DNA of 64,000 nucleotides from Dokdonia sp. 4H-3-7-5 (GTDB taxonomy: Bacteria > Bacteroidota > Bacteroidia > Flavobacteriales > Flavobacteriaceae). The notes below the pieces were generated by a model. It worked only from the letters and a program-made list of their open reading frames with translations. It made no database searches and was not told the DNA's origin. The DNA is taken from contig NC_015496.1 in NCBI RefSeq assembly GCF_000212355.1, forward strand, positions 2,450,001-2,514,000, in the 5' to 3' direction. This document shows, piece by piece, positions 814-60,224 of this stretch (positions are counted from its first letter, which is position 1; every line of letters begins with the position of its first letter). Both the position numbers and the translations under genes were made by a program.

Positions 814-2379
814 ATGGAACATAATGCACTCTTGTTCATCGTAGGTGTGATTGCACTAGCTTTAGGCTTTCTTATAGCAAAAATGCTAGAACGTAACAAC
901 GCATCGCAGATTATCAAACGCGCTAAGAAAAGTGCCCAAGGCATTTTAAAAGAAGCAACTTCTGATGGAGAGTCTCTTAAAAAAGATAAAATATTACAAG
1001 CAAAAGAAAAATTTATTGAGCTTAAAGCAGAGCATGAAAAAGTAATATTATCTCGTGATAAGAAAATGAATGATGCAGAGAAACGCGCTAGAGACAAAGA
1101 ATCTCAAGTAAGTGGAGAGCTTTCGCGAAATAAAAAATTAAATCAATCACTAGAAGATAAGATTAAAGATTACGATAAGCGCTTAGAATACGTAGATAAG
1201 AAAAAGGCTGAAGCAGAAAAGATGCATGAGAGTACTGTACAGCAGCTTGAAGTTATTTCTGGACTTTCTGCGGAAGAAGCAAAAAGTCAACTTGTAACAA
1301 CGCTGAAAGATCAAGCGAAGGCCGATGCAATGAAGCATGTTCAAACTGCCATCGAAGAGGCAAAAATGACGGCAGAGCAGGAAGCTAAGAAGATTATCAT
1401 AAATACGATACAACGTATTGGGACAGAAGAAGCGGTAGAAAATTGTGTATCTGTCTTTAATCTAGAAAGTGACGACGTAAAAGGTAGAATCATAGGTCGT
1501 GAAGGACGTAACATACGCGCTATAGAAGCTGCAACGGGTGTTGAGATTATAGTAGATGATACTCCTGAGGCAATCATACTTTCATGTTTTGATAGTGTGC
1601 GTCGTGAGGTAGCTCGTCTATCTCTTCACAAGCTTGTAACAGACGGTCGTATTCACCCAGCACGTATAGAAGAAGTTGTTCAAAAGACGACAAAACAGAT
1701 AGAACAAGAAATTGTTGAAGTAGGTAAGCGTACGGTGATTGACTTAGGAATACACGGTTTACACCCAGAGCTTATTAAAGCTGTTGGACGTATGAAATAT
1801 CGTTCTTCTTATGGACAGAACTTATTACAACACAGTAGAGAAGTAGCAAAACTTTGTAGCGTAATGGCTGCAGAACTTGGTGTAAATGCTAAGCTTGCTC
1901 GTAGAGCTGGACTTTTACATGATATAGGTAAAGTGCCAGATACTGATACAGAAACTCCACACGCAATCTTAGGAATGCAGTGGGCAGAAAAATATGGAGA
2001 GAAGCCAGACGTGTGTAATGCCATAGGAGCTCACCATGATGAGATAGAGATGACTAGTTTGTTATCACCTATTGTTCAAGTTTGTGACGCTATAAGTGGT
2101 GCACGCCCAGGAGCGCGCCGTCAGGTCCTAGATTCATACATCCAACGACTTAAAGATCTAGAAGAAATTGCTTTTGGTTTTCAAGGTGTTAAAAAAGCAT
2201 ATGCGATACAAGCAGGACGAGAACTACGTGTTATTGTGGAGAGCGAAAAAGTAAATGATGATAAAGCATCTAATTTATCTTTTGAGATTTCTCAAAAAAT
2301 TCAAACAGATATGACCTATCCAGGTCAAGTGAAAGTTACGGTAATACGCGAGACAAGAGCGGTAAATATTGCAAAGTAA
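814..2379 (+). CDS. rny: Ribonuclease Y (RNase Y)
   Basis: This is a membrane-anchored endoribonuclease that starts mRNA decay. It has an N-terminal transmembrane helix ([20 protein letters not shown]), then about 150 residues of charged coiled coil. Next comes a KH domain with [15 protein letters not shown], and then an HD domain with HSREVAKL and GLLHDIGK, whose His/Asp residues bind metal. From the ATG at 814 it is 521 residues, the usual family length. An in-frame GTG at 787 would add nine residues, but the ATG fits the family start better. One TTTCGCGAAA core at 1121-1130 is read as LSRN within the coiled coil. A terminator follows at 2404. Confidence 0.95.
1121..1130. repeat. TTTCGCGAAA palindrome copy 1 (core only), in rny
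   Basis: The 10-bp core lies in the coiled-coil region of RNase Y and is read as LSRN. The right flank departs from the extended consensus after the core. Confidence 0.8.
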
Positions 2380-2403
2380 TTTAAAACTACACTATAATCT
2401 GAG

Positions 2404-2434
2404 AAAGCCTGTACATATAGTACAGGCTTTTTTA
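2404..2434 (+). terminator. Intrinsic terminator after rny
   Basis: A perfect 10-bp stem (AAAGCCTGTA with TACAGGCTTT, 2404-2413 and 2421-2430) has a 7-base loop and is followed by a T-run. It lies 25 bases after the rny stop. Confidence 0.9.
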
Positions 2435-2569
2435 TTGGTACCTATTGTAATCACTTCACTTTGAGTAATTCGTAATGAACACTATCTTGTTTAAGATATT
2501 AATATTCAAAACTTGCTATGATCTCTAATTATTTAAAAAGTGTTCCTTTTTTATAATTAGTTCTAAAAG

Positions 2570-2602
2570 TTTATGGCTAACTCAAATAAGTTGCTACCTT
2601 TG
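2570..2602 (+). promoter_or_regulatory. Candidate Bacteroidota promoter of the arginine operon
   Basis: TACCTTTG at 2595-2602 matches the Bacteroidota -7 consensus TAnnTTTG exactly. A weak TTT at 2570-2572, 22 bases upstream, could serve as the -33 element. Transcription would begin near 2609, only a few bases before the leader ORF at 2616. Confidence 0.55.
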
Positions 2603-2615
2603 GACTATCTAACTA

Positions 2616-2726
2616 ATGAATAGAATAATTGCACATATTTCAAATAGTCTTACAGCACTTCTTGCTGCAAGACCCGCTATGCAATTAATTCCTGTTCCTG
2701 TACGACGCTTCCGCCGCCGCCCGTAA
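2616..2726 (+). CDS. Putative arginine-rich leader peptide of the arg operon
   Basis: This 36-codon ORF starts just downstream of a TACCTTTG promoter element and ends about 100 bases before the first arginine biosynthesis gene. Its C-terminus is VRRFRRRP: five Arg codons (CGA, CGC, CGC, CGC, CGC) within six codons at 2703-2720, then Pro and TAA. Two further Arg codons lie upstream, at residues 3 and 19. Position, size and a run of codons for the end product of the operon are the classic signs of a leader peptide for ribosome-mediated attenuation. An arginine-sensing nascent arrest peptide is an alternative, since ARPAMQLIPVPV precedes the Arg run. No ArgR gene is visible in the window. Translation is inferred, not shown. 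Confidence 0.62.
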   Translation: MNRIIAHISNSLTALLAARPAMQLIPVPVRRFRRRP

Positions 2727-2743
2727 GGGTAGCTCAATAATGA

Positions 2744-2772
2744 GGGATGGTAGGTGAGTCCTATCCCGTTTT
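2744..2772 (+). promoter_or_regulatory. Hairpin with short T-run in the arg leader (attenuator candidate)
   Basis: GGGAT...AGG at 2744-2754 can pair with CCTATCCC at 2760-2767 (8 bp with a 3-nt bulge, loop TGAGT), followed by GTTTTCC. A second small hairpin, TTCC/GGAA (2771-2774 with 2781-2784), lies just downstream. The 3' strand GGAACCGTC at 2781-2789 is also complementary to GACGCTTCC at 2704-2712, inside the Arg codons, with one C-C mismatch. Alternative pairing is therefore possible, but the U-tract is weak. Confidence 0.35.
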
Positions 2773-2825: not shown

Positions 2826-3443
2826 ATGCAAATTGTTGTAGCCACGATTTCGCACACACCATATGCTCAGATTATCTGTGATACTATCGCAGAGTCATCT
2901 AAAGTTCGTGGTACAGGAATCGCTCGTAGAACTCCAGAATACGTAATCTCAAAGATGGAAGCAGGTAATGCTGTCATTGCTTTAGAGGGAGACGTTTTTG
3001 CTGGCTTCTGTTATATAGAAGCTTGGGGACACGAAAAATTTATTGCCAACTCTGGACTTATTGTTCACCCAGACTTTAGGGGACAAGGACTTGCCAAAAA
3101 AATTAAAGGAGAAATATTTAAGCTTTCGCGAAAGCGTTATCCAGATGCAAAAATCTTTGGAATCACTACGGGTCTTGCTGTGATGAAGATTAATAGTGAC
3201 CTAGGTTATAAACCCGTCACATTTTCTGAACTCACAACAGATGAAAGCTTCTGGAAAGGTTGCCAGACCTGCAAGAACTTTGATGTACTCACACGTACAG
3301 AGCAAAAGATGTGCTTATGCACAGGGATGCTCTATGATCCATCAAAAGAATTAAAATCTACAGAAAAAAATACTGTAAAGGCACCTGTTTTTAACAGGCT
3401 AAAACAAATAAAGGAAAAGCTATTCCTTAAAAAAAATAAGTAA
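2826..3443 (+). CDS. GNAT acetyltransferase, first gene of the arg operon (candidate N-acetylglutamate synthase)
   Basis: The 205-residue protein has a GNAT fold: acetyl-CoA loop RGQGLAKKI at 85-93, preceded by the strand ANSGLIVHPDF. It heads the arginine operon and overlaps argG by one base. The operon needs an N-acylglutamate synthase, and no classical argA or argJ is present, so this gene is the natural candidate; comparable GNAT genes lead arg clusters in other Bacteroidota. The C-terminal third carries Cys146, Cys149, Cys163 and Cys165 (CxxC-x13-CxC), a possible metal site not part of the GNAT core, and ends in a Lys-rich tail. Substrate is inferred from context only. A palindrome copy is read as LSRKR at residues 100-104. 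Confidence 0.75.
   Translation: MQIVVATISHTPYAQIICDTIAESSKVRGTGIARRTPEYVISKMEAGNAVIALEGDVFAGFCYIEAWGHEKFIANSGLIVHPDFRGQGLAKKIKGEIFKLSRKRYPDAKIFGITTGLAVMKINSDLGYKPVTFSELTTDESFWKGCQTCKNFDVLTRTEQKMCLCTGMLYDPSKELKSTEKNTVKAPVFNRLKQIKEKLFLKKNK
3122..3135. repeat. TTTCGCGAAA palindrome copy 2 (14 bp), in the GNAT gene
   Basis: GCTTTCGCGAAAGC is read as part of KLSRKR, between the acetyl-CoA loop and the next strand. Confidence 0.85.
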
Positions 3444-4624
3444 TGAAAAAATTAATCTTAGCATACTCAGGAGGACTCGATACAAGCTATTGTGTAAAAT
3501 ATTTTACTGCCGAAATGGGATATGAAGTGCACGCTGTAAGTGTAAATACAGGTGGATTTACAGATCAAGAAATTGCAAATAACAAAGAGAAAGCCCTTGC
3601 ACTAGGAGCAAGCTCATATACAAATATAGATGCCGTAGCTACATTTTATGATACGGTGGTAAAGTACCTAATTTTTGGTAATGTACTTAAGAACAATAGT
3701 TATCCACTTTCTGTAAGTGCAGAACGTATAGTGCAAGCCATAGAGATTGCAAATTTTGCCAAAGCTCAAAACGCAGATGCTATTGCTCACGGTAGTACGG
3801 GTGCAGGTAACGATCAGGTACGTTTTGATATGACCTTCCAGACTATTGTGCCAGAGTTAGAAATAATAACGCCGATAAGAGATCAAACGCTTTCGCGAAA
3901 GCAAGAAATCGATTACCTACAGAGTCACGGTATCTCATGGTCTTGGGAGAAAGCGCAATACTCGATCAATCAAGGTTTATGGGGTACAAGTGTAGGAGGG
4001 GCACAAACCCTAACCTCACATCAAACACTTCCTGAAGATGCATATCCTAGTCAGCTGGAAGCTAGCGATTCGCAAACCTTAAAGATTGGATTCACACAAG
4101 GGGAACCTATATCACTTAATGGTAAGAAAGGGTCACCAGTGGAGATTATAGAGCAACTAGAAGACATCGCAAGCAAGTATGCCATAGGTCGCGGGATGCA
4201 CGTAGGCGATACCATTATTGGTATAAAAGGAAGAGTAGGTTTTGAAGCTGCAGCTCCTCTAATCATACTTGAAGCACATCGCACTCTTGAGAAACACACG
4301 CTTTCAAAATGGCAATTACAACATAAAGAAAACATCGCTTTGTGGTATGGTACTCACTTACACGAGGGATTATACCTAGAGCCAGTAATGAGAGACTTTG
4401 AAGCCTTCTTAAAGAGCAGCCAGAATACTGTCACGGGAGAGGTCGAGTTGATATTACATCCATATAGATTTGAGGTAGTAGGTATCACATCAGATTATGA
4501 TCTTATGCAATCTAAGGTAGCGAGTTATGGAGAAGAAAACCAAGGATGGACTGCTACCGAGGCAAAAGGGTTTATAAAAATATTAGGTAATCAGTCTAGA
4601 ATCATAGCAAACCAAAACAAATGA
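3443..4624 (+). CDS. argG: Argininosuccinate synthase
   Basis: It condenses citrulline and aspartate with ATP to argininosuccinate in the cytoplasm. The N-terminus has the ATP-pyrophosphatase P-loop LAYSGGLDTSYC (residues 6-17). Further family motifs are AHGSTGAGNDQVRFD around 113-127 and the GRGMHVGDTIIGIKGRVGFEAAAP region. At 393 residues it is of normal length. It overlaps the GNAT gene by one base and argC by four (ATGA), so translation is probably coupled. A palindrome copy encodes LSRKQ near residues 150-154. In Bacteroidota the citrulline substrate comes from deacylation of acyl-citrulline by ArgE. Confidence 0.96.
   Translation: MKKLILAYSGGLDTSYCVKYFTAEMGYEVHAVSVNTGGFTDQEIANNKEKALALGASSYTNIDAVATFYDTVVKYLIFGNVLKNNSYPLSVSAERIVQAIEIANFAKAQNADAIAHGSTGAGNDQVRFDMTFQTIVPELEIITPIRDQTLSRKQEIDYLQSHGISWSWEKAQYSINQGLWGTSVGGAQTLTSHQTLPEDAYPSQLEASDSQTLKIGFTQGEPISLNGKKGSPVEIIEQLEDIASKYAIGRGMHVGDTIIGIKGRVGFEAAAPLIILEAHRTLEKHTLSKWQLQHKENIALWYGTHLHEGLYLEPVMRDFEAFLKSSQNTVTGEVELILHPYRFEVVGITSDYDLMQSKVASYGEENQGWTATEAKGFIKILGNQSRIIANQNK
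3889..3902. repeat. TTTCGCGAAA palindrome copy 3 (14 bp), in argG
   Basis: It is read in the LSRKQ frame of argininosuccinate synthase, just before a helix beginning EIDYLQSHG. Confidence 0.85.
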
Positions 4625-5595
4625 AAAATATAGGAATCATAGGTGGTGCAGGTTATACTGCTGGGGAGCTCATTAGACTGCTTATTCATCACCCGGAAGT
4701 GCAGATTGACTTCATTTACAGTACTAGTAATGCTGGTAATGCAGTAGGGATAGTTCATCAAGATCTTGCTTATGTAGATTTTGCTTTTACAAGTGAGGTA
4801 AACACAAGTGTAGATGTAGTTTTTTTATGTCTAGGTCACGGTAACTCTGGTAAATTTCTTGAGCAATATAGCTTCTCTTTAAGCACGAAGATTATTGATT
4901 TGAGTAATGAGTTTAGACTTAAAAGTGATGTCACTTTTAAGGATAGAACATTTGTATACGGCTTGCCAGAAATTAATAAAGAAGCAATTATTAATGCGCA
5001 AAATATTGCAAACCCTGGCTGCTTTGCTACTGCTATTCAGCTTGCATTATTGCCGCTGGCGAGTGCTTATTTACTCAATAAAGATGTGCATATTAACGCC
5101 GTAACAGGTGCTACGGGAGCGGGAGTAAAACCAAGTGCTACTACGCATTTTGGGTGGAGAGATAATAACTTCTCACACTACAAGGCTTTTAATCATCAGC
5201 ATCTTGGGGAGATAGGAGAGTCTGTTGTTCAGCTGCAAGAGAGTTTTAACAGCGAACTTCATTTTATTCCGCAGCGTGGTAATTTTTCTAGAGGGATTTT
5301 TGCAACTGCCTACACATATTTTGAAGGTACGATTGAAGAAGCATATGCGCTTTATGATGATTTTTATAAGGATTCCCCTTTCGCGAAAGCGGTAAAAGCA
5401 CCTTTACACCTTAAACAAGTGGTCAATACAAACTACTGCTTTATCCATTTAGAAAAACACGGTAATAAATTATTAATTACCAGCGTGATTGATAATCTCT
5501 TAAAAGGAGCGAGTGGTCAAGCTGTAGAAAATATGAATCTAATGTTTGGTTGGGCTCAAGATACTGGTCTCCATCTCAAGGCAAGTTATTTCTAA
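4621..5595 (+). CDS. argC: N-acetyl-gamma-glutamyl-phosphate reductase
   Basis: It reduces acylglutamyl phosphate to the semialdehyde with NADPH, the third step of arginine synthesis. The Rossmann start IGIIGGAGYTAGELIRLL covers residues 4-21. The catalytic Cys134 sits in NPGCFAT, and HFIPQRGNFSRGIFATAY belongs to the C-terminal dimerisation domain. At 324 residues it is slightly shorter than many homologs. The start overlaps argG by 4 bases. It lies in the arg operon before proC. A 12-bp palindrome copy is read as PFAKA in the C-terminal half. Confidence 0.95.
   Translation: MKNIGIIGGAGYTAGELIRLLIHHPEVQIDFIYSTSNAGNAVGIVHQDLAYVDFAFTSEVNTSVDVVFLCLGHGNSGKFLEQYSFSLSTKIIDLSNEFRLKSDVTFKDRTFVYGLPEINKEAIINAQNIANPGCFATAIQLALLPLASAYLLNKDVHINAVTGATGAGVKPSATTHFGWRDNNFSHYKAFNHQHLGEIGESVVQLQESFNSELHFIPQRGNFSRGIFATAYTYFEGTIEEAYALYDDFYKDSPFAKAVKAPLHLKQVVNTNYCFIHLEKHGNKLLITSVIDNLLKGASGQAVENMNLMFGWAQDTGLHLKASYF
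5378..5389. repeat. TTTCGCGAAA palindrome copy 4 (12 bp), in argC
   Basis: It is read as PFAKAVKA; the left flank CCC breaks the extended palindrome. Confidence 0.8.
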
Positions 5596-6420: not shown

Positions 6421-7545
6421 ATGAAATTATTTAATGTATATCCACTTTATGATGTTACTCCTGTTAAGGCAGAGGGATGTTATGTGTATGATCAAAGTGG
6501 TCAGGAGTATCTTGATTTATATGGTGGTCACGCGGTGATCTCTATAGGTCACGGACACCCACATTATATAGAGAAATTAAAAACACAGATGGACGCTATA
6601 GGGTTTTATTCTAATGCAGTTCAGAATCCGCTGCAGGTGGAGGTTGCTCAGAAGTTAGGAGCGCTTTCTGGTTGTGAAGATTATGATTTGTTTTTCTGTA
6701 ACTCAGGAGCAGAGGCAAATGAGAACGGATTAAAACTAGCGTCATTTGACACAGGTAAAAGTCGCGTGGTAGCGTTTAAAAATAGCTTTCACGGGAGAAC
6801 ATCTGCCGCCGTTGCAGCTACTGATAATCCTAGCATCGTTGCGCCTATAAATGCACAACACCAAGTGTCAATACTCGATCTAGGTAATACGGAGCAACTA
6901 GAGGAAACTTTGCAACCAGGAGATTGCTGTGCGGTGATTTTGGAATTTATACAAGGTGTAGGAGGTTTAGATCAATCTACAGAGGTGTTTTATCAAGATG
7001 TTGCCGCGCTTTGTAAAAAATATGATGTAAAACTCATTGCAGACGAGGTGCAGTCTGGTTTTGGTAGATCTAGCGATTTCTTTGCTTTTCAGAAATATAA
7101 TATCACACCAGATATTATCACCATCGCAAAAGGAATGGGTAACGGTTTCCCCGTGGGCGGTGTGCTCGTGCATCACTCTATTGAGGCGAGATATGGGATG
7201 CTGGGAACAACCTTTGGCGGTAATCATCTTGCTTGCGCTGCTACACTTGCGGTACTTGAGGTAATTGAGAAGGAGCATTTGATGGCACACGCAAAGGAAA
7301 TGGAAATCTACTTTAGGGAGAAAGCACTTGCCTTTGGTAATCGGGTGACTGTAAAAGGTCGCGGATTAATGTTAGGGCTAGACTTAGGCTACGATGTAGG
7401 AGCATTGCGAAAAAAACTAATTTACGAGCATCACATTTTTACGGGTGGAGCAAAAAACAAACACGTGCTCAGAATACTTCCACCACTTACGATTCAAAAA
7501 CCACAGATAGATTTACTATTTGAAGCATTACACAAAGAGTTATGA
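6421..7545 (+). CDS. argD: Acetylornithine (acyl-ornithine) aminotransferase
   Basis: This class-III PLP aminotransferase converts acylglutamate semialdehyde to acylornithine with glutamate as donor. The PLP lysine is Lys237 in TIAKGMGNGFPVGG, and Asp208 in ADEVQSG contacts the pyridine nitrogen. CNSGAEANE near residue 93-101 binds the phosphate. At 374 residues it is full length. Its stop overlaps the argF' start by 4 bases. Whether it handles acetyl or succinyl intermediates cannot be read from the sequence. A second class-III aminotransferase at 32.5-33.7 kb has a different setting. Confidence 0.94.
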   Translation: MKLFNVYPLYDVTPVKAEGCYVYDQSGQEYLDLYGGHAVISIGHGHPHYIEKLKTQMDAIGFYSNAVQNPLQVEVAQKLGALSGCEDYDLFFCNSGAEANENGLKLASFDTGKSRVVAFKNSFHGRTSAAVAATDNPSIVAPINAQHQVSILDLGNTEQLEETLQPGDCCAVILEFIQGVGGLDQSTEVFYQDVAALCKKYDVKLIADEVQSGFGRSSDFFAFQKYNITPDIITIAKGMGNGFPVGGVLVHHSIEARYGMLGTTFGGNHLACAATLAVLEVIEKEHLMAHAKEMEIYFREKALAFGNRVTVKGRGLMLGLDLGYDVGALRKKLIYEHHIFTGGAKNKHVLRILPPLTIQKPQIDLLFEALHKEL

Positions 7546-8507
7546 AGAACTACATATCTATAAATGATATTCCTAATTTAGAAATGGCGATTAAAGAAGC
7601 GCTGTATATGAAGGAATATCCGTACGCTTTCGCGAAAGCGGGAAAACAAAAAACCTTAGGTCTTCTATTTTTTAACTCAAGCTTACGTACAAGATTAAGC
7701 ACAGAAAAGGCTGCCAAAAACCTTGGAATGGAGACGATGACACTCAATGTAAACAGTGATAGCTGGCAACTAGAGTTTGAAGATGGTACTGTGATGGATG
7801 GCACAAAAGCAGAGCACATTAAAGAGGCTGCGCAGGTGTTATCGCAATATTGTGATGTACTTGCCGTGAGAGCTTTTCCAGGGCTGGTAGATAAAAGTCA
7901 AGATGAGCTAGAGGTTGTACTTTCTGCATTTATGCAATATGGGAGTGTGCCGGTTGTAAATCTAGAAAGCAGTACGGCGCACCCGCTACAAGGCTTTACA
8001 GATGCAATCACGATTTACGAACTCACCGAAAGTCTACGTGCAGAAAATAAAAAGCCTAATGTTGTGTTGACCTGGGCGCCACATCCTAAAGCCTTGCCGC
8101 ACGCAGTTGCAAACTCATTTGTCCAGACTATGCAAAAGGCAAATGTAAATTTCACAATTACTAATCCAGAGGGGTATGATCTCAATCCAGAAATACGTGG
8201 AGAAGTACCTGTGATTCATAATCAGAAAGAAGCCTTTGCAAATGCTGATATCATTTATGTAAAAAATTGGAGCAGCTATGAAGATTATGGTAAGGTGCAA
8301 TCGCAAGACAGTAACTGGATAATTAATGCCGAAAAACTTAAGGGAACCAATCAAGCCAAAGTAATGCATTGCCTACCTGTGCGTCGTAACGTTGTCATTG
8401 CAGATGATGTGCTAGACACTGCATCAAGCGCAGTAATCCAGCAAGCTGGTAATAGAACGTGGGCTGCACAATGGGTACTTAAAAACATACTCGACAATGA
8501 TAAATAA
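7542..8507 (+). CDS. argF': N-acyl-ornithine carbamoyltransferase (ArgF', acetyl/succinylornithine type)
   Basis: It transfers the carbamoyl group to N-acylornithine, the Bacteroidota/Xanthomonas variant of the pathway in which deacylation comes last. The carbamoyl-phosphate loop is NSSLRTRLST (45-54), and HCLPVRRN lies near the C-terminus. The residue said to set acetyl versus succinyl specificity (Glu in Xanthomonas, Pro90 in Bacteroides, by recollection) is Ala90 here, in MDGTKAEHI. Exact acyl group is therefore open. The gene overlaps argD by 4 and argB by 11 bases. A palindrome copy is read as AFAKA at residues 29-33. Confidence 0.9.
   Translation: MKNYISINDIPNLEMAIKEALYMKEYPYAFAKAGKQKTLGLLFFNSSLRTRLSTEKAAKNLGMETMTLNVNSDSWQLEFEDGTVMDGTKAEHIKEAAQVLSQYCDVLAVRAFPGLVDKSQDELEVVLSAFMQYGSVPVVNLESSTAHPLQGFTDAITIYELTESLRAENKKPNVVLTWAPHPKALPHAVANSFVQTMQKANVNFTITNPEGYDLNPEIRGEVPVIHNQKEAFANADIIYVKNWSSYEDYGKVQSQDSNWIINAEKLKGTNQAKVMHCLPVRRNVVIADDVLDTASSAVIQQAGNRTWAAQWVLKNILDNDK
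7625..7640. repeat. TTTCGCGAAA palindrome copy 5 (16 bp), in argF'
   Basis: CGCTTTCGCGAAAGCG is read as AFAKA between helix 1 and the first beta strand (KTLGLLFF) of the transcarbamylase. Confidence 0.85.
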
Positions 8508-9282
8508 ACAGCAACTTACCGTAGTAAAAATAGGTGGAGACATTGTAGATTATAATGAGCTGCTCACCTCATTTTACACGCATTTTAAGGCAATTTCTGG
8601 TCCAGCTATAATCATACACGGTGGAGGAAATAAAGCATCTACTTTACAAGAGCAGCTGGGTTATGTTCCGGTAAAAGTAGACGGGAGAAGGGTGACAGAT
8701 GAGGCTACGCTAGAGGTTGTGACAATGGTGTATGCCGGACTTCTCAATAAGAAACTTGTCGCTGGCCTGCAGGCAAAAGGTAAAAATACCATAGGACTTT
8801 CTGGCGCTGATGGTGATGCTGTGAGAGCTCATAAACGCGAAGTGAAAACTGTAGATTATGGCTTTGTGGGAGATATAGATAGAGTGAATGTGAGTTTTAT
8901 AAATGACCTCCTTTCTGATGGAAAAGTACCCGTATTTTCTGCAATTACGCACGATGGTAATGGGCAATTACTCAACACCAATGCAGATACACTTGCTGCC
9001 AAAATTGCGGTAGCAATGAGCTCTCTCTACAACGTTCAATTATTTTATTGTTTTACAAAACCAGGTGTTCTTGGAGATGTAAATAATGATGAATCGATAG
9101 TAACGCGCATAGATAAAGGCCTTTATAAAGAGATGAAAACAGCAGGACAAATATTTGAAGGGATGATTCCTAAACTAGACACTGCTTTTGAGGCGCTAGA
9201 TCAGGGCGTTATGAGAGTGCATCTGGGCGAAGTTGACGTACTGAGCGATAACACTATAAAACACACGACACTATGTCTTTAA
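8497..9282 (+). CDS. argB: Acetylglutamate (acylglutamate) kinase
   Basis: It phosphorylates N-acylglutamate with ATP. The amino-acid-kinase fold shows VVKIGGDIVD at the N-terminus (catalytic Lys), IIIHGGGNKAS in the glycine loop, and LLNTNADTLAAKIAVAM for the acylglutamate/nucleotide site. At 261 residues it is the short form, without the N-terminal helix associated with arginine-sensitive hexameric NAGKs, which suggests weak or no arginine feedback at this step. The start lies 11 bases inside argF' and the stop overlaps argE by 10 bases. Confidence 0.94.
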   Translation: MINKQQLTVVKIGGDIVDYNELLTSFYTHFKAISGPAIIIHGGGNKASTLQEQLGYVPVKVDGRRVTDEATLEVVTMVYAGLLNKKLVAGLQAKGKNTIGLSGADGDAVRAHKREVKTVDYGFVGDIDRVNVSFINDLLSDGKVPVFSAITHDGNGQLLNTNADTLAAKIAVAMSSLYNVQLFYCFTKPGVLGDVNNDESIVTRIDKGLYKEMKTAGQIFEGMIPKLDTAFEALDQGVMRVHLGEVDVLSDNTIKHTTLCL

Positions 9283-10343
9283 AAACTCAAATAGATAACG
9301 CCGTAGCACTACTACAATCACTCATTGAGACACAAAGTTTTTCTAGTGAAGAAGATGGCACAGCTTTACTTATAGTAAACTGGCTAGAGGAGAAGGGGAT
9401 TACGCTTTCGCGAAAGCGTAACAACATCTACGCATTTAATAAACATTATGACGCATCAAAACCGTTATTGCTTCTCAACTCCCACCACGATACGGTTAAG
9501 CCAAATAAAGGATATACAAGAGATCCTTATAATGCCGAAATCAAGGACGGAAAATTGTACGGTCTAGGAAGTAACGATGCAGGTGCAAGTCTTGTAGGAT
9601 TGCTTACTGCGTTTGTACATTTTTATGAGCGTGAGGGTATGTCTCATAATATTGTAATTGTAGCTTCTGCTGAAGAAGAGTCAAGTGGTCCAAATGGTCT
9701 TAATAGTATGCTTGCGCATCTACCAGAAATAGATGTTGCCATAGTAGGCGAGCCTACACTTATGAACCTAGCCATTGCCGAAAAAGGTCTGGTGGTTTTT
9801 GACGCCGTAGTAAAAGGAACGGCAGGTCACGCAGCTCACATAAAGGAGAATATGGCTATTTATAATGTAATAGAAACCTTGCAGTGGTTTGAGAATATAA
9901 CTTTTGATAAAGTGTCTGAGACGCTGGGTGCCACTAAGGTTACAGTAACACAAATTAATGCGGGTAGTCAACATAATGTAGTGCCTAGTCAGGTAGAACT
10001 CGTCATAGATGTAAGAGTAAACGAGCATTACAGCAATCAAGAAATCGCCGATTATATGGTGGCAAATATGCCGTGTGACATAATACAGCCAAGGTCATTA
10101 CGATTAAATAGTTCGCGTATTCCAAAAGAGCACAAATTAGTACAAGCAGGAATAGCCCTAGGCAGAGAAACCTACGGTTCGCCTACCTTATCTGATCAAG
10201 CCTGTTTGAGTTGTCCATCTTTAAAACTAGGTATAGGGGACAGCACTCGCTCTCATATGGCAGATGAGTTTGTTTACGTAAACGAGATAGAGGAAGGTAT
10301 TCCATTATATATTGATATTCTAGAAAATTTTTTAACCGCATAA
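9273..10343 (+). CDS. argE: M20 family acyl-citrulline/acyl-ornithine deacylase
   Basis: This zinc-dependent M20 peptidase-family enzyme removes the acyl group; after ArgF' the expected substrate is N-acylcitrulline. Metal and catalytic residues are visible: His72 and Asp73 in NSHHDTVKP, Asp102 in GSNDAGAS, Glu134/Glu135 in SAEEESSG. A lid domain (about 165-275) precedes the C-terminal part. At 356 residues it is of normal length. It overlaps argB by 10 bases. A palindrome copy, the longest in the window at 22 bp, is read as LSRKR at residues 45-49. Confidence 0.92.
   Translation: MSLKTQIDNAVALLQSLIETQSFSSEEDGTALLIVNWLEEKGITLSRKRNNIYAFNKHYDASKPLLLLNSHHDTVKPNKGYTRDPYNAEIKDGKLYGLGSNDAGASLVGLLTAFVHFYEREGMSHNIVIVASAEEESSGPNGLNSMLAHLPEIDVAIVGEPTLMNLAIAEKGLVVFDAVVKGTAGHAAHIKENMAIYNVIETLQWFENITFDKVSETLGATKVTVTQINAGSQHNVVPSQVELVIDVRVNEHYSNQEIADYMVANMPCDIIQPRSLRLNSSRIPKEHKLVQAGIALGRETYGSPTLSDQACLSCPSLKLGIGDSTRSHMADEFVYVNEIEEGIPLYIDILENFLTA
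9400..9421. repeat. TTTCGCGAAA palindrome copy 6 (22 bp, longest), in argE
   Basis: TACGCTTTCGCGAAAGCGTA at 9401-9420 is perfect and extends by one T/A pair on each side. It is read as TLSRKRN near the N-terminus of the deacylase. Confidence 0.9.
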
Positions 10344-13209: not shown

Positions 13210-13824
13210 TTAAAACACCATTCGTTCTTTTTCAAAGGCTTCTATTTCTGCCTTTTTACTTAATAAAAAATCTATATCGTCATACCCATTGATCATACAT
13301 ACTTTCTTGTAAGGATCTATGTCAAATTTCGCTTTCTTACTTCGACCTTGCTCAGCATAAACTACAGCCATCTCAACCACTTGATTTTCTAGATCAATTG
13401 TAATGGGCAACTTAGGGTTTGCTTCTATATTTGCTAGTAATTCCTTAAGATACTCCGGAGTTACCTGAATAGGTAGCAAGCCATTGTTAAGTGCATTACC
13501 TTTAAAAATATCTGCAAAAAAACTTGATATCACAACCTTAAATCCATACCCTACAATTGCCCAAGCAGCGTGCTCACGGCTAGAACCACAACCAAAGTTA
13601 TCTCCAGCTACTAGAATTTTTGCTCCAGCATATTGTGGTTTATTAATAGGGAACTCTGCATCCAGCGTTCCATCTTTTTTAAAACGCCAGTCTCTAAAAA
13701 CGTTATCACCAAACCCTTTTTTATCTGTCGCCTTCAAGAAGCGCGCAGGGATAATCTGGTCTGTATCTATATTTTCTATAGCTAGCGGTACCGCGGTGCT
13801 TATGAGTTTTGTAAATTTTTCCAT
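13210..13824 (-). CDS. leuD: 3-isopropylmalate dehydratase small subunit
   Basis: This is the swivel-domain subunit that pairs with LeuC to isomerise 2- to 3-isopropylmalate. The motifs are [14 protein letters not shown] at about 19-32 and [16 protein letters not shown], the substrate-binding signature of the aconitase small domain. At 204 residues it is the usual size. Its start codon shares one base with the leuC stop, so the subunits are probably translationally coupled. Confidence 0.96.
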
Positions 13825-33730: not shown

Positions 33731-33740
33731 TTTCGCGAAA
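33731..33740. repeat. TTTCGCGAAA palindrome copy 14 (core, intergenic)
   Basis: It lies 32 bases upstream of the chosen aminotransferase start, in its 5' region. Confidence 0.8.
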
Positions 33741-45358: not shown

Positions 45359-47215
45359 ATGAGACATATTTTTCTTTTTATTGCAGTGATGCTGTATGCA
45401 CACGCGTCTGTTGGACAGATAGATACACTTCAAGTTTTACCTGAAGTGATATTGAGTGACGTAAAGTTACGAGAGCACAGCGTGGGGATTGCAATTCAAA
45501 AAGTATCTGATAGTATATTACAGCAATCTAGAACATCTCTTACAGATGTTTTGAAGAATAATACAAGTATATACTTTAGAGAAAATGGTCCTGGTGGGGT
45601 TTCTTCGGCGTCTTTTAGAGGAACAAATGCTTCTCAAACAGCCGTGGTGTGGAATGGTATCAACATCAATAGTCAGCTCACAGGTCAAACGGATTTTAAT
45701 ACCATCTCCACAAATAATTACGATAATCTTGATGTGCGTGCAGGTGGTGGTAGCATTATTTATGGTTCAGGAGCAATAGGAGGGAGCGTCCATCTTAATA
45801 ATGAGATCCAGTTTTATAAACATGCGGAGACTACAATTTCTGCTGGTTACGGGAGTTTTGATACGCAGGTAGCACATGCAAAAACTCGATTTTCTACAGA
45901 GAAATTATATGTCGATGTAGGAGCAGATTTCCAGCAGTCTGAAAATGATTTTGATTATCTTGATACAAATGATTTGTTTAATGCAAACGGTCAATATGAG
46001 AATCTAGACCTCAATTTTAATGTGGGCTACTTATTATCAACTGCTAGAGACAAAACTCACATTTTAAAATTACATCACAATACATATTTAGGTGATCGCA
46101 ATTTTTCTGGAACGCTCACTGCACCATCTAATGATGCTTATGAGGATCGCAACACGAGAACCTTAGTTGCTTGGGAAAATCTAAGCAAGCGCTATGATGG
46201 TATTTTAAGGCTAGCACATATCTATGAGCAATTTAGATACTATGCAAATAATGAGTCAGACCTTAATGACTTAGGGAAAGCCACGCGTTACCTAGCAAAC
46301 TATGAGGGAACTTTAAAAATAGATCCATCCAAGAGACTTACTTTTTTGGGAGAAATAAACACCATTTCGGCAGCGGGAGCTTCTATTGAGAAAGCATCTA
46401 GAACGAGTGCATCTGCTGTTGCATTGTGGAAACACCAATTGCTGTCGGCATTACGTTATGAAATACAGGTAAGGCAGGAAGTTGTTGAAGATTATAGTAG
46501 TCCATTCTTACTAGGGGTTGGTTTGGATTACGCTTTCGCGAAAGCGTATAAATTTTCATTCAACGCTTCCCGCAATTACCGTATACCTACATTTAATGAC
46601 ACCTACTGGGCGGGACCTGGGGCTACAGGGAATCCAGATATTCAACCAGAAACTAGTAAACAAGCCGAGTTAGGGGTTTCTAGAAGCCAGAACAACATCA
46701 CCTTAGGTTTGCGAGGTTTTTATATAGATACGGACGATCTCATTAAGTGGCAACCTAATAGTGCGGGAATATGGAGTCCAGTAAACATTGAAGATACGGA
46801 GCATTATGGTGCTGAATTTTCTTTTAAACTAGATAAGAAAATAGGACAGCATCGTCTGGCAGCAAGCGCAGCATACGCTTATACAATTGCAGAGAATGCA
46901 GAAACTAATAGGCAACTTATTTATGTTCCTAAAAATAAAGGAACTGTGGGAGTGAGTTATAATTATAGTTGGCTTAGTTCATATGTGCAGGGAATTTATA
47001 ATGGAAGTGTATTTACTACAACAGATAATACTTCAACAGTGGCAGATTCCTTTGTTGCAAATGCAGGCATAACTGCAGAGCTCTTTAAAAATGGAAATCG
47101 TAAGATGACCTTATCCACCAAATTGAATAATGTCTTGAATATAAATTACCAGACGGTCGCTTTTAGACCTAATCCTGGCCGCAACTTTTTAATACAAACA
47201 ACGTATACTTTTTAA
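45359..47215 (+). CDS. btuB: BtuB-like TonB-dependent receptor
   Basis: This outer-membrane receptor of 618 residues has a signal peptide (1-19), a plug domain with ILSDVKLREHSVGIAIQKV and SFRGTNASQTAVVWNGININSQLTGQTDF, and a 22-strand barrel that ends with the aromatic YTF. A cobalamin riboswitch directly upstream makes vitamin B12 or a related corrinoid the probable ligand. The next gene, 8 bases downstream, is a BtuG-like surface lipoprotein. A perfect 20-bp palindrome copy is read as YAFAKAYKF in a barrel strand. Confidence 0.9.
   Translation: MRHIFLFIAVMLYAHASVGQIDTLQVLPEVILSDVKLREHSVGIAIQKVSDSILQQSRTSLTDVLKNNTSIYFRENGPGGVSSASFRGTNASQTAVVWNGININSQLTGQTDFNTISTNNYDNLDVRAGGGSIIYGSGAIGGSVHLNNEIQFYKHAETTISAGYGSFDTQVAHAKTRFSTEKLYVDVGADFQQSENDFDYLDTNDLFNANGQYENLDLNFNVGYLLSTARDKTHILKLHHNTYLGDRNFSGTLTAPSNDAYEDRNTRTLVAWENLSKRYDGILRLAHIYEQFRYYANNESDLNDLGKATRYLANYEGTLKIDPSKRLTFLGEINTISAAGASIEKASRTSASAVALWKHQLLSALRYEIQVRQEVVEDYSSPFLLGVGLDYAFAKAYKFSFNASRNYRIPTFNDTYWAGPGATGNPDIQPETSKQAELGVSRSQNNITLGLRGFYIDTDDLIKWQPNSAGIWSPVNIEDTEHYGAEFSFKLDKKIGQHRLAASAAYAYTIAENAETNRQLIYVPKNKGTVGVSYNYSWLSSYVQGIYNGSVFTTTDNTSTVADSFVANAGITAELFKNGNRKMTLSTKLNNVLNINYQTVAFRPNPGRNFLIQTTYTF
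46529..46548. repeat. TTTCGCGAAA palindrome copy 18 (20 bp), in btuB
   Basis: TACGCTTTCGCGAAAGCGTA is read as YAFAKAY within a transmembrane beta strand. Confidence 0.9.
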
Positions 47216-52954: not shown

Positions 52955-53617
52955 TCATGTTATTGATTTGATTAACAGTGCGATATCGTTGTAGATTCGA
53001 TCGTACGTCTTTTTGCGCGTTCTGTAACCTAGGAAAGAGGAGCAATATATTGAGGTTTCTAGCTCGTTTATATTATATAAATCATCAATCTGTTCAAAAT
53101 GAGGTTCTTGCTGTGCTCGTTGTTCTAATGTATAGCCAATCCATTCTTTAGAAAAAAACATAGCTCCTTTTCTATTAAACAGTAAAATAAGCTCTGGAGA
53201 GATATGCTCAATAACTTCCTTTGTGATGGCTAATTGGCTTTTTAAAAAATCTCGACCCTTTTCATCCCTTAAGAAATATTCTATTTGTTTTTGTTCAGTA
53301 TGACGTTGATAAAATAAATCACAATAGGTAATTCCAAATTGCTCAAAGCCTTTAAGTAATGTCGAGAATTTTTTAAAATAGCGATCAGTACTTAAGTGGT
53401 CATAGTTATAGCTATATCCATTACTTCCTACAAAATCATTTCTTAATGAGGGATTAATCCCCATCACTAGTATTTTGGCTTTAGGATTTACTTCAGAGAA
53501 TATAAAACCTTCTTCAGCTATAGCAAGTTGCTCTGCTGTTATAGATTGACTTTTAAATTGTGTAAAAACTTGTTCAATTTTCGCTTTAAGCGCGCTATTA
53601 AAAGAATCGTTATTCAT
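52955..53617 (-). CDS. Uracil-DNA-glycosylase-fold protein of unknown specificity
   Basis: The 220-residue cytosolic protein contains AKILVMGINPSLRNDFVGSN near residues 47-66; GINPS at 53-57 resembles the catalytic loop GINPG of the mismatch-specific MUG branch of the uracil-DNA glycosylase superfamily. ELILLFNRKGAMFF fits the following central strand. The usual C-terminal His/Ser motif is not obvious, so activity is uncertain. Its start lies inside the last bases of the DUF1343 gene (8-base overlap), hence same transcript. Confidence 0.6.
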   Translation of the reverse strand: MNNDSFNSALKAKIEQVFTQFKSQSITAEQLAIAEEGFIFSEVNPKAKILVMGINPSLRNDFVGSNGYSYNYDHLSTDRYFKKFSTLLKGFEQFGITYCDLFYQRHTEQKQIEYFLRDEKGRDFLKSQLAITKEVIEHISPELILLFNRKGAMFFSKEWIGYTLEQRAQQEPHFEQIDDLYNINELETSIYCSSFLGYRTRKKTYDRIYNDIALLIKSIT

Positions 53618-54872
53618 ACATAAGGTACTGCTTACGTATGCTTTTAAAGTTTTCTATATCCTTTATCCAGTCACGTTTAATCTCTTTAAAGGTATATCCA
53701 TCTTGAATTTGCTGCTGTAGTTTTTTATTACCTGCATGAAGGGTGAAACTAGCCGTTTTAAAGAATTTATTTTTATCAGTGCTTGCAGTATAAGCTTCTA
53801 TAAGCCATTCTAAATTAACGCGGCTCATGTACTCTTGATTACGTAAGTCTATGCCATAACAACGTTGTCCATTATGTTTAGGATCCTTTGATCCGAAGTT
53901 AGGCTCAGGAGTGTACGAGTATGTAAAATTGCTAGGTGAAAAATCTGGAGCTCCAAAAATTTGAAACTGCATTTCTGTTCCTCTTCCGGCATTAATGGTA
54001 GTTCCTTCAAAGAAGCCTAGGCTAGGGTAGAGGTTGATACTTTTATCATTAGGCAAATTAGGAGAAGGACGCGTAGGTAATGAATACGGGGTCGTGTAAT
54101 CCCAATTTTTTAATGGAATCACCGTAAGACTACATTGTATGTTATCTTTAAGCCAGCCCTCACCATTCACCATCATGGCATATTCTCCTATAGTCATACC
54201 ATAGACTAAGGGTACTTCATGCATCCCTAAAAAGCTTGTGTGCTCCTTTCCTAGCGTAGGACCGTCTATATAATGAGCGTTAGGGTTAGGTCTGTCTAGT
54301 ACAATTACCGGTATACCTTTTTCGGCAGCGGCTTCCATCACATAGGTAAGTGTAGATATATAGGTGTAAAATCGAACACCCACATCTTGTATGTCAAAGA
54401 GGATTACATCGAGTCCTTCTAGTTGTTCCTGGCTTGGTTTCTTGTTTTTACCGTAAAGAGAGATAATATTAAGACCAGTCCTTGGATCTTTTCCATCTTT
54501 TACTCGCTCTCCAGCATCTACATCACCGCGAAATCCGTGTTCTGGTGAGAAAACACGTGTAACTGTAATTCCGCTTGAGATAAGAGAATCTACTAGGTGT
54601 GTACTTTCCTTTTCAATATGCGGAGTACTTTTAAATATGAGTCCGCTTTTGTTTGTGACTACACCTACTTTTTTATCTTTAAGCAACGGTAAGTAGAGCG
54701 CTGTCCTATTGGCAGCGGTAACGATTGGTTGTTGAGAAGGAGTTTCTTGTAGTACAGTTTCTTTTTTTAATTCCGCTTTCGCGAAAGCGTTACTATCTCC
54801 ACCGCTATTTGCACAAGAAATAAGCAGTGTGAGCATTAAAAAAAGGGTATTTTTGAAGAAAATGAGACGCAT
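53610..54872 (-). CDS. DUF1343 (NamZ-type) exo-beta-N-acetylmuramidase lipoprotein
   Basis: The 420-residue lipoprotein has Cys20 in LTLLISC. The DUF1343 core shows KKVGVVTNKSGLI, FSPEHGFRGDVDAGERVKDG and LDVILFDIQDVGVRFYTYISTL, followed by VLDRPNPNAHYIDGP. Members characterised as NamZ remove terminal MurNAc from peptidoglycan fragments, so a role in cell-wall recycling at the envelope is likely. The palindrome copy encodes AFAKAELKK just after the lipobox, in the flexible linker. It is head-to-head with the next gene, with no base between the start codons. Confidence 0.88.
   Translation of the reverse strand: MRLIFFKNTLFLMLTLLISCANSGGDSNAFAKAELKKETVLQETPSQQPIVTAANRTALYLPLLKDKKVGVVTNKSGLIFKSTPHIEKESTHLVDSLISSGITVTRVFSPEHGFRGDVDAGERVKDGKDPRTGLNIISLYGKNKKPSQEQLEGLDVILFDIQDVGVRFYTYISTLTYVMEAAAEKGIPVIVLDRPNPNAHYIDGPTLGKEHTSFLGMHEVPLVYGMTIGEYAMMVNGEGWLKDNIQCSLTVIPLKNWDYTTPYSLPTRPSPNLPNDKSINLYPSLGFFEGTTINAGRGTEMQFQIFGAPDFSPSNFTYSYTPEPNFGSKDPKHNGQRCYGIDLRNQEYMSRVNLEWLIEAYTASTDKNKFFKTASFTLHAGNKKLQQQIQDGYTFKEIKRDWIKDIENFKSIRKQYLMYE
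54774..54789. repeat. TTTCGCGAAA palindrome copy 19 (16 bp), in the DUF1343 gene
   Basis: It is read as NAFAKAEL in the linker just after the lipobox, close to the divergent start codons. Confidence 0.85.
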
Positions 54873-56105: not shown

Positions 56106-56138
56106 TTGATTATATTGATTAATTAGATTGGAATCCTT

Positions 56139-57805: not shown

Positions 57806-58345
57806 TTAAAAAGCAATGAGCGTGTAACCTTCCATTTGCGATTGACTTAAAACTGTCATTGCCGAAAGTCCTACATCAATCATTTCCAGTCTTCGTTCTT
57901 TGGTAATATTACGCGCTCCAGCAGTTTGACCACAAAGGATGAGTGATACGTTTGCTTCTTTTAAGGCTTCTAGTAATTCAATGTTAGGATTATCTACGCC
58001 AAATTTCTCCTTATACAATTCATTAGTAAGCATTCCATAAGCTGCTTGTCCGTGTATAGCGGCCCGTATGTGCATATTTGTTGCAGGAACACCTGCTTTC
58101 TCTTGCATATTAAGAAATCTCGCCATCGTCTCAATGTATGGATTGCGCAAACTTGGATTTTCAGGTGCTTTTGCTACATCAAACACTACTTTGAAAATTG
58201 CGGTAGTATCTGTTTTAAAATCAGGATTATTAACTTCATAAGTTTTACCAAAATCACTTATAACGTTACCTGGAGTAGATATAGGTTGTTGAGCATACGC
58301 TTTCGCAAAAGCGAGACAAAAAAAAAGTAAAAAACTATATTTCAT
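57806..58345 (-). CDS. Exported DsrE-family protein, next to blh
   Basis: The 179-residue protein has a signal peptide whose c-region is AFAKAYAQQ, encoded by a decayed palindrome copy (TTTCGCAAAA at 58301). The DsrE-like domain covers about 45-175: FKVVFDVAKAP, NMHIRAAIHGQAAYGML, and ANVSLILCGQTAGARNI with Cys, a position that often carries sulfur in DsrE proteins. Its exported location is unusual for a sulfur-relay fold. It begins 1 base after blh on the same strand, so the pair is cotranscribed. Confidence 0.85.
   Translation of the reverse strand: MKYSFLLFFCLAFAKAYAQQPISTPGNVISDFGKTYEVNNPDFKTDTTAIFKVVFDVAKAPENPSLRNPYIETMARFLNMQEKAGVPATNMHIRAAIHGQAAYGMLTNELYKEKFGVDNPNIELLEALKEANVSLILCGQTAGARNITKERRLEMIDVGLSAMTVLSQSQMEGYTLIAF
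58301..58310. repeat. Degenerate palindrome copy in the DsrE gene
   Basis: TACGCTTTCGCAAAAGCGAG has one core mismatch; it still encodes AFAKA, in the signal peptide. Confidence 0.6.
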
Positions 58346-58346
58346 T

Positions 58347-59252: not shown

Positions 59253-59307
59253 GAATAATTTAGGTGTTGATAATTTTAATTAAAAAATTATGAGAAAATA
59301 ATTATTT

Positions 59308-59343
59308 ATTTGTTTAACATTATCTAAATTTACTTAAACAAAT
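59308..59343. promoter_or_regulatory. Inverted repeat in the blh-proteorhodopsin intergenic region (operator candidate)
   Basis: ATTTGTTTAA (59308-59317) and TTAAACAAAT (59334-59343) form a perfect 10-bp dyad with 16 bases between. A third half-site TGTTTAA follows at 59343-59349. The dyad lies 23 bases before the rhodopsin start and 55 bases from the blh start, suited to a regulator that controls both genes. Confidence 0.6.
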
Positions 59344-59366
59344 GTTTAATTAAAAATATCAATGCT

Positions 59367-60101
59367 ATGAAATTTTTATTACTATTACTAGCCGACCCAA
59401 CAAAACTAGATCCAAGTGATTATGTAGGATTTACATTCTTTGTGGGTGCGATGGCGATGATGGCAGCTTCTGCTTTCTTTTTTCTATCGCTTAACCAATT
59501 TAACAAGAAGTGGCGAACCTCAGTCCTTGTATCTGGTTTAATCACATTTATTGCCGCAGTGCACTACTGGTACATGAGAGATTACTGGTTTGCTATTCAA
59601 GAGTCTCCTACATTTTTTAGATATGTAGACTGGGTACTTACAGTTCCATTAATGTGTGTTGAATTCTACTTAATTTTAAAAGTTGCCGGTGCAAAACCTG
59701 CACTCATGTGGAAGCTTATCTTATTCTCGGTTATTATGTTAGTAACAGGATACTTTGGAGAAGCTGTATTCCAAGATCAAGCCGCATTGTGGGGAGCTAT
59801 CTCTGGAGCCGCATATTTTTATATAGTATATGAAATTTGGTTAGGAAGCGCAAAGAAACTTGCAGTTGCTGCTGGTGGAGATATTCTTAAAGCACATAAA
59901 ATACTATGCTGGTTCGTACTCGTAGGTTGGGCTATTTATCCATTAGGATATATGCTAGGTACAGATGGATGGTACACGAGCATACTAGGAAAAGGAAGTG
60001 TAGATGTCGCTTATAACATTGCAGATGCTATCAATAAGATAGGGTTTGGACTAGTGATTTATGCACTAGCTGTAAAAAAGAATGAAGTTGATGTTGTTTA
60101 A
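59367..60101 (+). CDS. Proteorhodopsin, proton-pump type, green-tuned
   Basis: It is a seven-helix light-driven proton pump of 244 residues with an N-terminal hydrophobic segment. The retinal Schiff-base Lys224 is in DAINKIGFGLVIY; the proton acceptor Asp88, Thr92 and donor Glu99 give the DTE motif in RYVDWVLTVPLMCVEFY; His66 is the acceptor partner in AAVHYWYM. The spectral tuning position is Met96, not Gln, so green absorption is expected. The DTE pattern separates it from sodium-pumping NDQ rhodopsins. Promoter region shared with blh; terminator follows. Confidence 0.97.
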   Translation: MKFLLLLLADPTKLDPSDYVGFTFFVGAMAMMAASAFFFLSLNQFNKKWRTSVLVSGLITFIAAVHYWYMRDYWFAIQESPTFFRYVDWVLTVPLMCVEFYLILKVAGAKPALMWKLILFSVIMLVTGYFGEAVFQDQAALWGAISGAAYFYIVYEIWLGSAKKLAVAAGGDILKAHKILCWFVLVGWAIYPLGYMLGTDGWYTSILGKGSVDVAYNIADAINKIGFGLVIYALAVKKNEVDVV

Positions 60102-60135
60102 GTTTGATTAGTAAAAGGTGAAAACACTCAATTGG

Positions 60136-60166
60136 AAAACGCAACCAGCAATGGTTGCGTTTTTTT
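60136..60166 (+). terminator. Intrinsic terminator after proteorhodopsin
   Basis: AAAACGCAACC pairs with GGTTGCGTTTT (11 bp), loop AGCAAT, followed by a T-run. It starts about 35 bases after the stop. Confidence 0.93.
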
Positions 60167-60214
60167 ATGTGTAGGTTTTTTCAATTATTAAGATGTGTAG
60201 TAGGCTTATTGCGC

Positions 60215-60224
60215 TTTCGCGAAA
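60215..60224. repeat. TTTCGCGAAA palindrome copy 20 (core, intergenic)
   Basis: It lies between the proteorhodopsin terminator and the end of the convergent gene at 60311. The right flank (AATAG) departs from the extended consensus. Confidence 0.8.

Follow-up and report, generated by a model that had tools for sequence, protein, structure and literature searches.

An evenly spaced, genome-wide palindrome in Dokdonia and Nonlabens as a candidate DNA-uptake or self-recognition sequence

What role does a 10-bp palindrome play that stands at 20 places in a single 64-kb stretch of bacterial DNA? The stretch in question (hereafter the window, meaning the whole 64,000-nucleotide sequence analysed) comprises bases 2450001-2514000 of the Dokdonia sp. 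4H-3-7-5 genome (G000), a single contig of 3,389,993 bases, and the palindromic core TTTCGCGAAA occurs in it in 20 exact copies. The complete genome contains 1012 copies, compared with 10 of the reversed string. We propose, at a probability of roughly 0.45 and from sequence evidence, that the palindrome may be a DNA-uptake or self-recognition sequence serving natural transformation. Among the matches listed in our literature search there was no report of this palindrome; one paper holding a searched string (PMC8034619) deals, in the part that contains it, with human absent words.

Copy number and recognised unit

Repetition of the palindrome is a property of the whole genome. We sampled 40 stretches of 20 kb across the chromosome (5,000 bases of one of them read N), which together with the window amount to 864 kb, or 25% of the genome. 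This sample holds 250 copies of the core, compared with 0.87 expected from an order-2 Markov model, and each of the 40 stretches contains between one and nine sites. Shuffling of synonymous codons in 714 predicted genes (200 shuffles) left on average 3.3 copies in genes and never more than 8, as against 137 observed. Chance and codon usage are thus ruled out as the cause of the copy number by the reversed control, the Markov expectation and the synonymous shuffles alike. The first-pass annotation of the window had placed all 20 cores at their exact coordinates, and its chance expectation of about 0.06 copies per 64 kb agrees with the Markov model. The excess that it saw locally holds for the genome, where the count lies far above expectation, and synonymous shuffling fails to reproduce the copies. 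Shuffled sequences contained too few copies for an analysis of spacing, which was instead tested against random placement at the observed densities.

The unit extends beyond the core to about 16 bp, CGCTTTCGCGAAAGCG. In the 864-kb sample, 250 of the 252 copies of TTCGCGAA extend to the full 10-mer. One-mismatch variants of the 10-mer, summed over positions, number 59 against 30 expected; position 3 and C-to-T type changes of CpGs account for the excess, and positions 1 and 2 show none. Outward from the core, the bases C, G and C are present at 89%, 88% and 75% per arm, followed by a weaker A, T and T, and marked conservation stops about 6 bp outside the core; within the 16-bp unit it is the outer positions that vary most. 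CGC stands on both arms in 122 of the 250 sites, on one arm in 108 and on neither in 20. The same flank bases reach 100%, 97% and 91% at 75 sites sampled from Nonlabens, and 86%, 86% and 55% at 88 sites of a further genus, g210.

The symmetry of the site is informative. At positions -1, -2 and -3 the two arms match in 196, 190 and 154 of the 250 sites, compared with 201, 195 and 148 if they were independent. A weak excess of matching arms appears at -4 (108 versus 98), and in g210 at -3 (40 versus 33 of 88) and -4 (35 versus 25). Since the arms vary largely independently, a dimeric protein is favoured over a hairpin, and the pattern points, in the main, to two half-sites that would be bound by such a protein and not to selected base pairing.

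The sites of the window are listed below with their state in four relatives (G004, G007, G008 and G016); all are palindromic, with strand given as '.'.

1121-1130, 10-bp palindrome in gene 814-2379(+); kept in G007, other three relatives not aligned
3122-3135, 14-bp palindrome in gene 2826-3443(+); kept in G008, G007
3889-3902, 14-bp palindrome in gene 3443-4624(+); kept in G008, G007
5378-5389, 12-bp palindrome in argC 4621-5595(+); kept in G008, G007
7625-7640, 16-bp palindrome in gene 7542-8507(+); kept in G008, G007
9400-9421, 22-bp palindrome in gene 9273-10343(+); kept in G008, G007
14436-14451, 16-bp palindrome in gene 13824-15209(-); kept in G008, G007
19106-19119, 14-bp palindrome in gene 19017-19715(-); kept in G008, G007
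22646-22655, 10-bp palindrome in gene 22047-23447(-); kept in G008, G007
23852-23867, 16-bp palindrome in gene 23480-23989(-); kept in G008, G007
26190-26205, 16-bp palindrome in gene 24750-26246(-); kept in G008, G007, G016
29282-29301, 20-bp palindrome, intergenic, between divergent genes; kept in G008, G007
32444-32461, 18-bp palindrome, intergenic; kept in G008, G007, G016, G004
33731-33740, 10-bp palindrome, intergenic; kept in G008, G007; changed, with an insertion, in G004
39935-39950, 16-bp palindrome in gene 38699-40108(-); kept in G008, G007, G004
42574-42587, 14-bp palindrome in gene 42008-42799(-); kept in G008, G007; absent in G016
44563-44578, 16-bp palindrome in gene 43818-44999(-); kept in G008, G007, G016, G004
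46529-46548, 20-bp palindrome in TonB-dependent-receptor-like gene 45359-47215(+); kept in G008, G007, G004; one change in G016
54774-54789, 16-bp palindrome in gene 53610-54836(-); kept in G008, G007, G016, G004
58298-58313, decayed site CGCTTTCGCAAAAGCG with one mismatch; core intact at the same place in G008, G007, G016
60215-60224, 10-bp palindrome, intergenic; kept in G007; one C-to-T type change in G008

The three 20-mers that had been noted at 9401, 29282 and 46529 are all real, the pairing at 9401 spanning 22 bp. As for the four degenerate copies proposed alongside them, the one at 58298-58313 stands, with one mismatch in 16; near 16040, 18325 and 36281 the best matches have four mismatches in 16. 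Elsewhere in the window, the product of bases 60784-62358 is a GMC protein resembling cholesterol oxidase, whose match (E 5.8e-180) falls short of the curated cut-off for the family.

Placement, spacing and turnover

Sites are concentrated in non-coding DNA. With gene boundaries taken from our own simple gene caller, 113 of the 250 sites in the sample fall outside genes, in 12% of the DNA; in the 40 stretches there are 109 sites per 91 kb outside genes versus 121 per 709 kb inside, a difference in density of six- to sevenfold. Intergenic sites occur with neighbouring genes in each of the four arrangements, and 4 of the 20 window copies are intergenic. Genic sites are read as AFAKA (79), LSRK (36) or FRES (22), depending on the frame. 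Outside genes lie 37 of 75 sites in the Nonlabens sample and 17 of 88 in g210.

The sites are also far more even than random placement would make them. Site counts in the 40 stretches have an index of dispersion of 0.47, compared with 1.41 in simulations that preserve genic and intergenic densities, and none of 2000 simulations was as low. In the same stretches, 8 gaps are shorter than 500 bp and 23 shorter than 1000 bp, against 40 and 64.5 simulated, long gaps are likewise rarer than chance, and the coefficient of variation (CV) of the gaps is 0.60 versus 1.01. Over the first 100 sites of the source genome the CV is 0.63, and over the first 67 of G016 it is 0.67. The Nonlabens sample has a CV of 0.48 and no gap under 1000 bp among 74 (15.6 expected), the shortest being 1268 bp; in g210 the CV is 0.69, with 6 of 87 gaps under 1000 bp (15.8 expected). 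Compared with Nonlabens, this last genus (G230; L197-L198, L430-L449) has more degenerate cores and flanks and a less regular spacing, and its system may be relaxing. The first-pass annotation had allowed at most one site per gene, which is true of the window by our own gene calls; it is no rule, since two sites stand in 12 of the 125 genes that carry any in the 864-kb sample, and the tendency towards a single copy per gene follows from the even spacing.

The chromosome does have runs of 10-18 kb with no site. The longest, 17.9 kb (L154, 2112-20000), resembles a variable island: numerous small genes accompany an open reading frame (ORF; start 9876) that by eye is reverse-transcriptase-like. 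The remaining long runs are found next to giant genes or within an AT-rich stretch, and AT-rich 5-kb segments, few in number, show a lower site density. A search for ribosomal RNA in one long gap gave no Rfam match.

Comparison with relatives shows that the sites are conserved between species and turn over between genera. At aligned window sites the core is kept in 20 of 20 cases in G007, 18 of 19 in G008, 4 of 6 in G016 and 5 of 6 in G004, compared with 8.6, 11.9, 0.3 and 0.2 predicted from matched 10-mers, that is, from local identity; window sites outside the alignments were excluded (0, 1, 14 and 14 of 20, respectively). Between genera, g210 shares 4 of 17 comparable genic places with the source genome and Nonlabens 1 of 17, and g210 and Nonlabens share none of three. 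The scarcity of shared places indicates that single sites are replaceable while density and spacing persist.

Distribution, decay and phage carriage

In the genomes searched, carriage of the palindrome in high copy number is narrowly distributed. All 18 genomes examined of genus g1 have 481-1195 copies. Among 397 genomes of the family, more than 500 copies are found in six, namely both of g1, all three of g11 and the sole genome of g210, and the other 391 have 0-34; g1 and g11 are identified as Dokdonia and Nonlabens (which includes G281) by inference. A scan of 84,980 named species genomes with the 20-mer returned at least 111 stretches, and as a lower bound it does not prove absence outside the genera listed. 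Among the 111 matches listed, 109 come from Dokdonia, Nonlabens or 'Flavobacteria bacterium BBFL7', one from Muricauda and one from a Flavobacteriaceae metagenome-assembled genome, the last two with one core each in 8 kb. The genus g220 (G240 and G407, about 3.3 Mb each) has no core, against 10 and 14 copies of the reversed control. Comparable palindromic 10-mers were sought in 16 stretches of 20 kb, 14 from other genera of the family and 2 from other families of the order, and showed only small excesses, with at most four copies among those listed.

In a tree built from five proteins of the rpoB region in 24 genomes, Dokdonia, g210 and a genus g164 group together at 99%. Nonlabens is weakly placed (80 and 50), and the system may accordingly have had a single origin or have been transferred. 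CarB proved too conserved to serve as a marker for placing the genera.

The genus g164 is of particular interest here. Its genome G184 contains 34 cores and 86 near matches to the 14-mer with up to two mismatches, versus 20 in the control; 9 are exact, 20 have one mismatch and, by subtraction, 57 have two. The 50 places listed of these near matches lie dispersed on many contigs, one of which has a small cluster. In comparison with carriers, one intact copy occupies a source-genome place (one of five comparable sites), and at one place where g210 has an intact copy G184 has a decayed one (none of two exact). We read these remnants as a probable loss of the system by g164, although some copies may have been received by transfer.

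Two further genomes present a different, clustered picture. In G116 all 25 places listed of 41 near matches fall within about 80 kb of one contig, and in G127 9 of 11 near matches and 6 of 7 cores fall within 35 kb. The G127 stretch has a G+C content of 0.39-0.42 in its centre versus 0.30-0.36 around it, and by eye from the protein starts it appears to encode metal-efflux pumps and metal ATPases, with a recombinase-like ORF nearby. Both clusters are probably DNA received from the Dokdonia/Nonlabens clade. They are located at C1:2540754-2574785 in G127 (L411-L412) and at C3:32331-110029 in G116 (L395-L409, odd loci). Spacings of 933 and 2446 bp recur in G127, G116 and G184.

Phages carry the palindrome as well. 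A scan of a viral collection with the 16-mer found 41 stretches on 30 contigs, and in the tiles examined 13 site-bearing phage contigs hold at least three cores, the densest having one per 4.0-4.7 kb; these densities are biased upward, since the contigs were chosen for bearing a site. The site-bearing tiles searched encode portal, capsid, terminase and tape-measure proteins. Integrases are encoded on L271 (9147-10343) and L253 (2756-3952), with an integrase relative on L324, and a transposase-family protein on L293 (1289-3118); more than one kind of phage must therefore carry sites. The three integrase-bearing contigs have at least one core per roughly 6 kb, and if they live as prophages, such phages would come under whatever drive or selection acts on the chromosome. 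A blastn search of 26 site-bearing tiles against the host samples gave no match, and a further tile of a site-bearing contig, L262, shows 66% identity over 639 bp to the source genome. Two sites exactly 4480 bp apart recur on L304 (6707-11187), L325 (3014-7494) and L328 (6172-10652); on L304 the first of the two lies between the portal and capsid genes. Finally, two phages of Nonlabens, P12024S (35.7 kb) and P12024L (35.0 kb), contain no copy at all.

Uptake sequence, chromosome organiser or other mark

How could such a pattern arise through DNA uptake? A two-fold symmetric, dimeric DNA-binding protein would read the 16-bp unit genome-wide, and a putative receptor would prefer DNA fragments bearing a site, in the manner of the Neisseria DNA uptake sequence (DUS) and the Haemophilus uptake signal sequence (USS). 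Imported fragments would recombine with the homologous chromosome, and sites would thereby spread by molecular drive. Where a site already existed, another one at most 1-2 kb away would add little and would not be kept, while a long site-free stretch would gain most from a new one; even spacing would be the consequence. We infer, then, that a protein reads the site, that it acts in DNA uptake and that drive, not selection on the cell, keeps the sites. In a toy gain-loss model, where a site counts only if the fragments covering it hold no other, two of 16 freely chosen settings (exponential fragments with means of 1 and 2 kb) produced a mean gap of 3.6 kb with CVs of 0.50 and 0.58; across all 16 the CV was 0.34-0.58 and the mean gap 1.2-14 kb. 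A benefit saturating over 1-2 kb can, in such a model, give spacing of this kind.

The palindrome shares several marks with known uptake sequences, and the comparison depends on published descriptions that disagree about how even DUS and USS are. The relevant passages of PMC2397512 tie DUS/USS spacing to the length of conversion fragments and describe permissive core-genome places and high conservation; those of PMC7811141 describe the USS distribution as relatively even and a result of drive, and those of PMC1939737 hold uptake sequences to be less even than compaction sites should be. From the same parts of these three sources, the marks of uptake sequences are copy number, permissive places and a steep fall from exact to mismatched copies. 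Like them, the palindrome has hundreds to thousands of genome-wide copies, a sharp core with weaker flanks, enrichment in permissive, non-coding DNA, even kilobase-scale spacing and conservation within its group. Its density is about 0.3 per kb, as against about 1 per kb given for USS in H. influenzae (PMC7811141, in the portion concerned), and its carriers belong to a different phylum, the Bacteroidota. Furthermore, a preference for own DNA in transformation is described, in the section bearing on it, for the relative Riemerella columbina (PMC7965970), and homologues of the R. anatipestifer transformation genes are noted in many Flavobacteriaceae (PMC8459023, likewise in part).

Several points nevertheless count against uptake. 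The site is palindromic with equal arms, where DUS and USS are marked by an asymmetric recognition sequence. To our knowledge, there is no report of transformation in Dokdonia or Nonlabens, and the R. columbina study, in the part concerned, found Flavobacterium johnsoniae not to be competent. All 24 genomes tested, whether or not they carry the palindrome, have ComEC, which therefore does not discriminate carriers; no receptor has been identified, and no search aimed at one was made. The model CVs lie below those of the source genome, G016 and g210 (0.60-0.69), and the model does not single out uptake, given that any benefit saturating over 1-2 kb yields such spacing. At most a few long gaps hint at a depletion in newly acquired DNA. 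An intracellular function would also explain phage site densities near those of the host. Strong evenness together with two-fold symmetry means that a cytoplasmic dimer fits at least as well.

Such a dimer is the basis of the main rival reading, which we consider somewhat unlikely: that inside the cell a chromosome-organising protein, whether nucleoid-associated, condensin-related or loop-forming, binds the palindrome, an even supply of sites every 3-4 kb being itself selected. The sites of MatP (matS), Noc and ParB (parS) are similarly two-fold symmetric and bound by dimeric proteins, but they are few and confined to parts of the chromosome, unlike the roughly 1000 here that reach all 40 stretches. 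The replichore orientation bias of the FtsK-orienting polar sequences (KOPS) and of skewed octamers has no counterpart in a palindrome without orientation, whose forward and reverse counts are equal. No case known to us has some 1000 sharp sites in a genome, our analysis identified no protein of this kind (it did not cover ParB-like families), and selection would be needed on each of about 1000 sites although turnover between genera shows single sites to be replaceable. Conversely, the largely independent arms of the symmetric site, the presence of sites in every stretch sampled, and an evenness that in Nonlabens surpasses simple exclusion (CV 0.48 versus 0.70) are what this reading would predict, and integrase-bearing phages would live inside such a chromosome; the evenness argument of PMC1939737, as made in the part cited, also lends it support. 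The first-pass annotation had listed several candidate roles, and that list is borne out in part, with an uptake signal ranked first and a chromosome-organisation site second.

A methylation site of the type proposed for the cyanobacterial highly iterated palindrome HIP1 appears improbable. Here a methyltransferase would recognise the centre (e.g. TCGCGA), and methyl-directed repair or a similar process would make and keep the sites. Part of the one-mismatch excess is indeed of C-to-T type, and the variable outer positions of the 16-bp unit are reminiscent of the HIP1 ends, but the end positions of the 10-mer have no excess of variants, and ten near-invariant bases exceed the usual length of a type II site. 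Our methyltransferase search covered PF00145, PF01555 and PF02086 (other families and phosphorothioation were not searched). Neither the source genome nor the Nonlabens genome G281 has a match over the curated cut-off to any of the three, the former having one PF01555 match below it, and the absence of these families from two carriers weakens the model. Across eight carriers there is no common family, PF00145 being absent from five, PF01555 over the cut-off in two and PF02086 in four. Hence the likeness to HIP1 drawn at first pass stands for form, that of a short, over-represented, iterated palindrome limited to a clade, and not for a link to these methyltransferase families. The part of PMC4390886 that describes HIP1 also gives it 1000-2000 copies per Mb and 8 bp, compared with about 300 per Mb and 10-16 bp here, while agreeing in form and in clade-bound repetition.

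Still less probable is a role as a self mark, in which DNA lacking the site would be destroyed by a nuclease or defence system and DNA bearing it would be spared. Several phages do have site densities near the host's, and long gaps are rarer than chance; yet the chromosome tolerates its site-free runs, and the two Nonlabens phages contain no site in 70.7 kb together. Least credible of all is a structural or mobile element, be it a DNA cruciform, an RNA hairpin or a small transposed palindrome resembling repetitive extragenic palindromic (REP) or Rickettsia elements: perfect palindromes of up to 22 bp and the weak matching-arm excess at -3 and -4 in g210 and at -4 in the source genome would favour it, but the latter has no such excess at -1 and -2, sites lie between genes of every orientation, and 48 of 51 aligned site places have no indel. 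We therefore rejected hairpin, cruciform and RNA structure on the arm-matching evidence and an inserted element on finding an indel at just 3 of the 51 places. REP and Rickettsia elements are also palindromic repeats, some within genes, but they are longer inserted units of tens to about 150 bp, whereas the unit here is 10-20 bp at places that mostly align without indels, and the Rickettsia comparison made in the first-pass annotation is accordingly abandoned.

Returning to uptake, it is tempting to bring the observations together in a fuller proposal, offered tentatively. The palindrome would be the first uptake-type self-recognition sequence of the Bacteroidota, and of a palindromic kind; a dimeric receptor would drive the thousand or so evenly spaced sites of Dokdonia, Nonlabens and one further genus, integrase-bearing phages would have taken up sites, and a related genus would have lost the receptor and, with it, be losing its sites.

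Very few short signals that recur across a whole genome have a known role, and that of HIP1 is itself open. The palindrome described here offers one clade with cultured members in which spacing, symmetry, turnover, decay after loss and phage carriage are all measurable. It may additionally serve as a tracer of DNA that left the Dokdonia/Nonlabens clade for other genera. Should the palindrome prove to be an uptake signal, it would mean that a common marine group of bacteria exchanges DNA with a bias.

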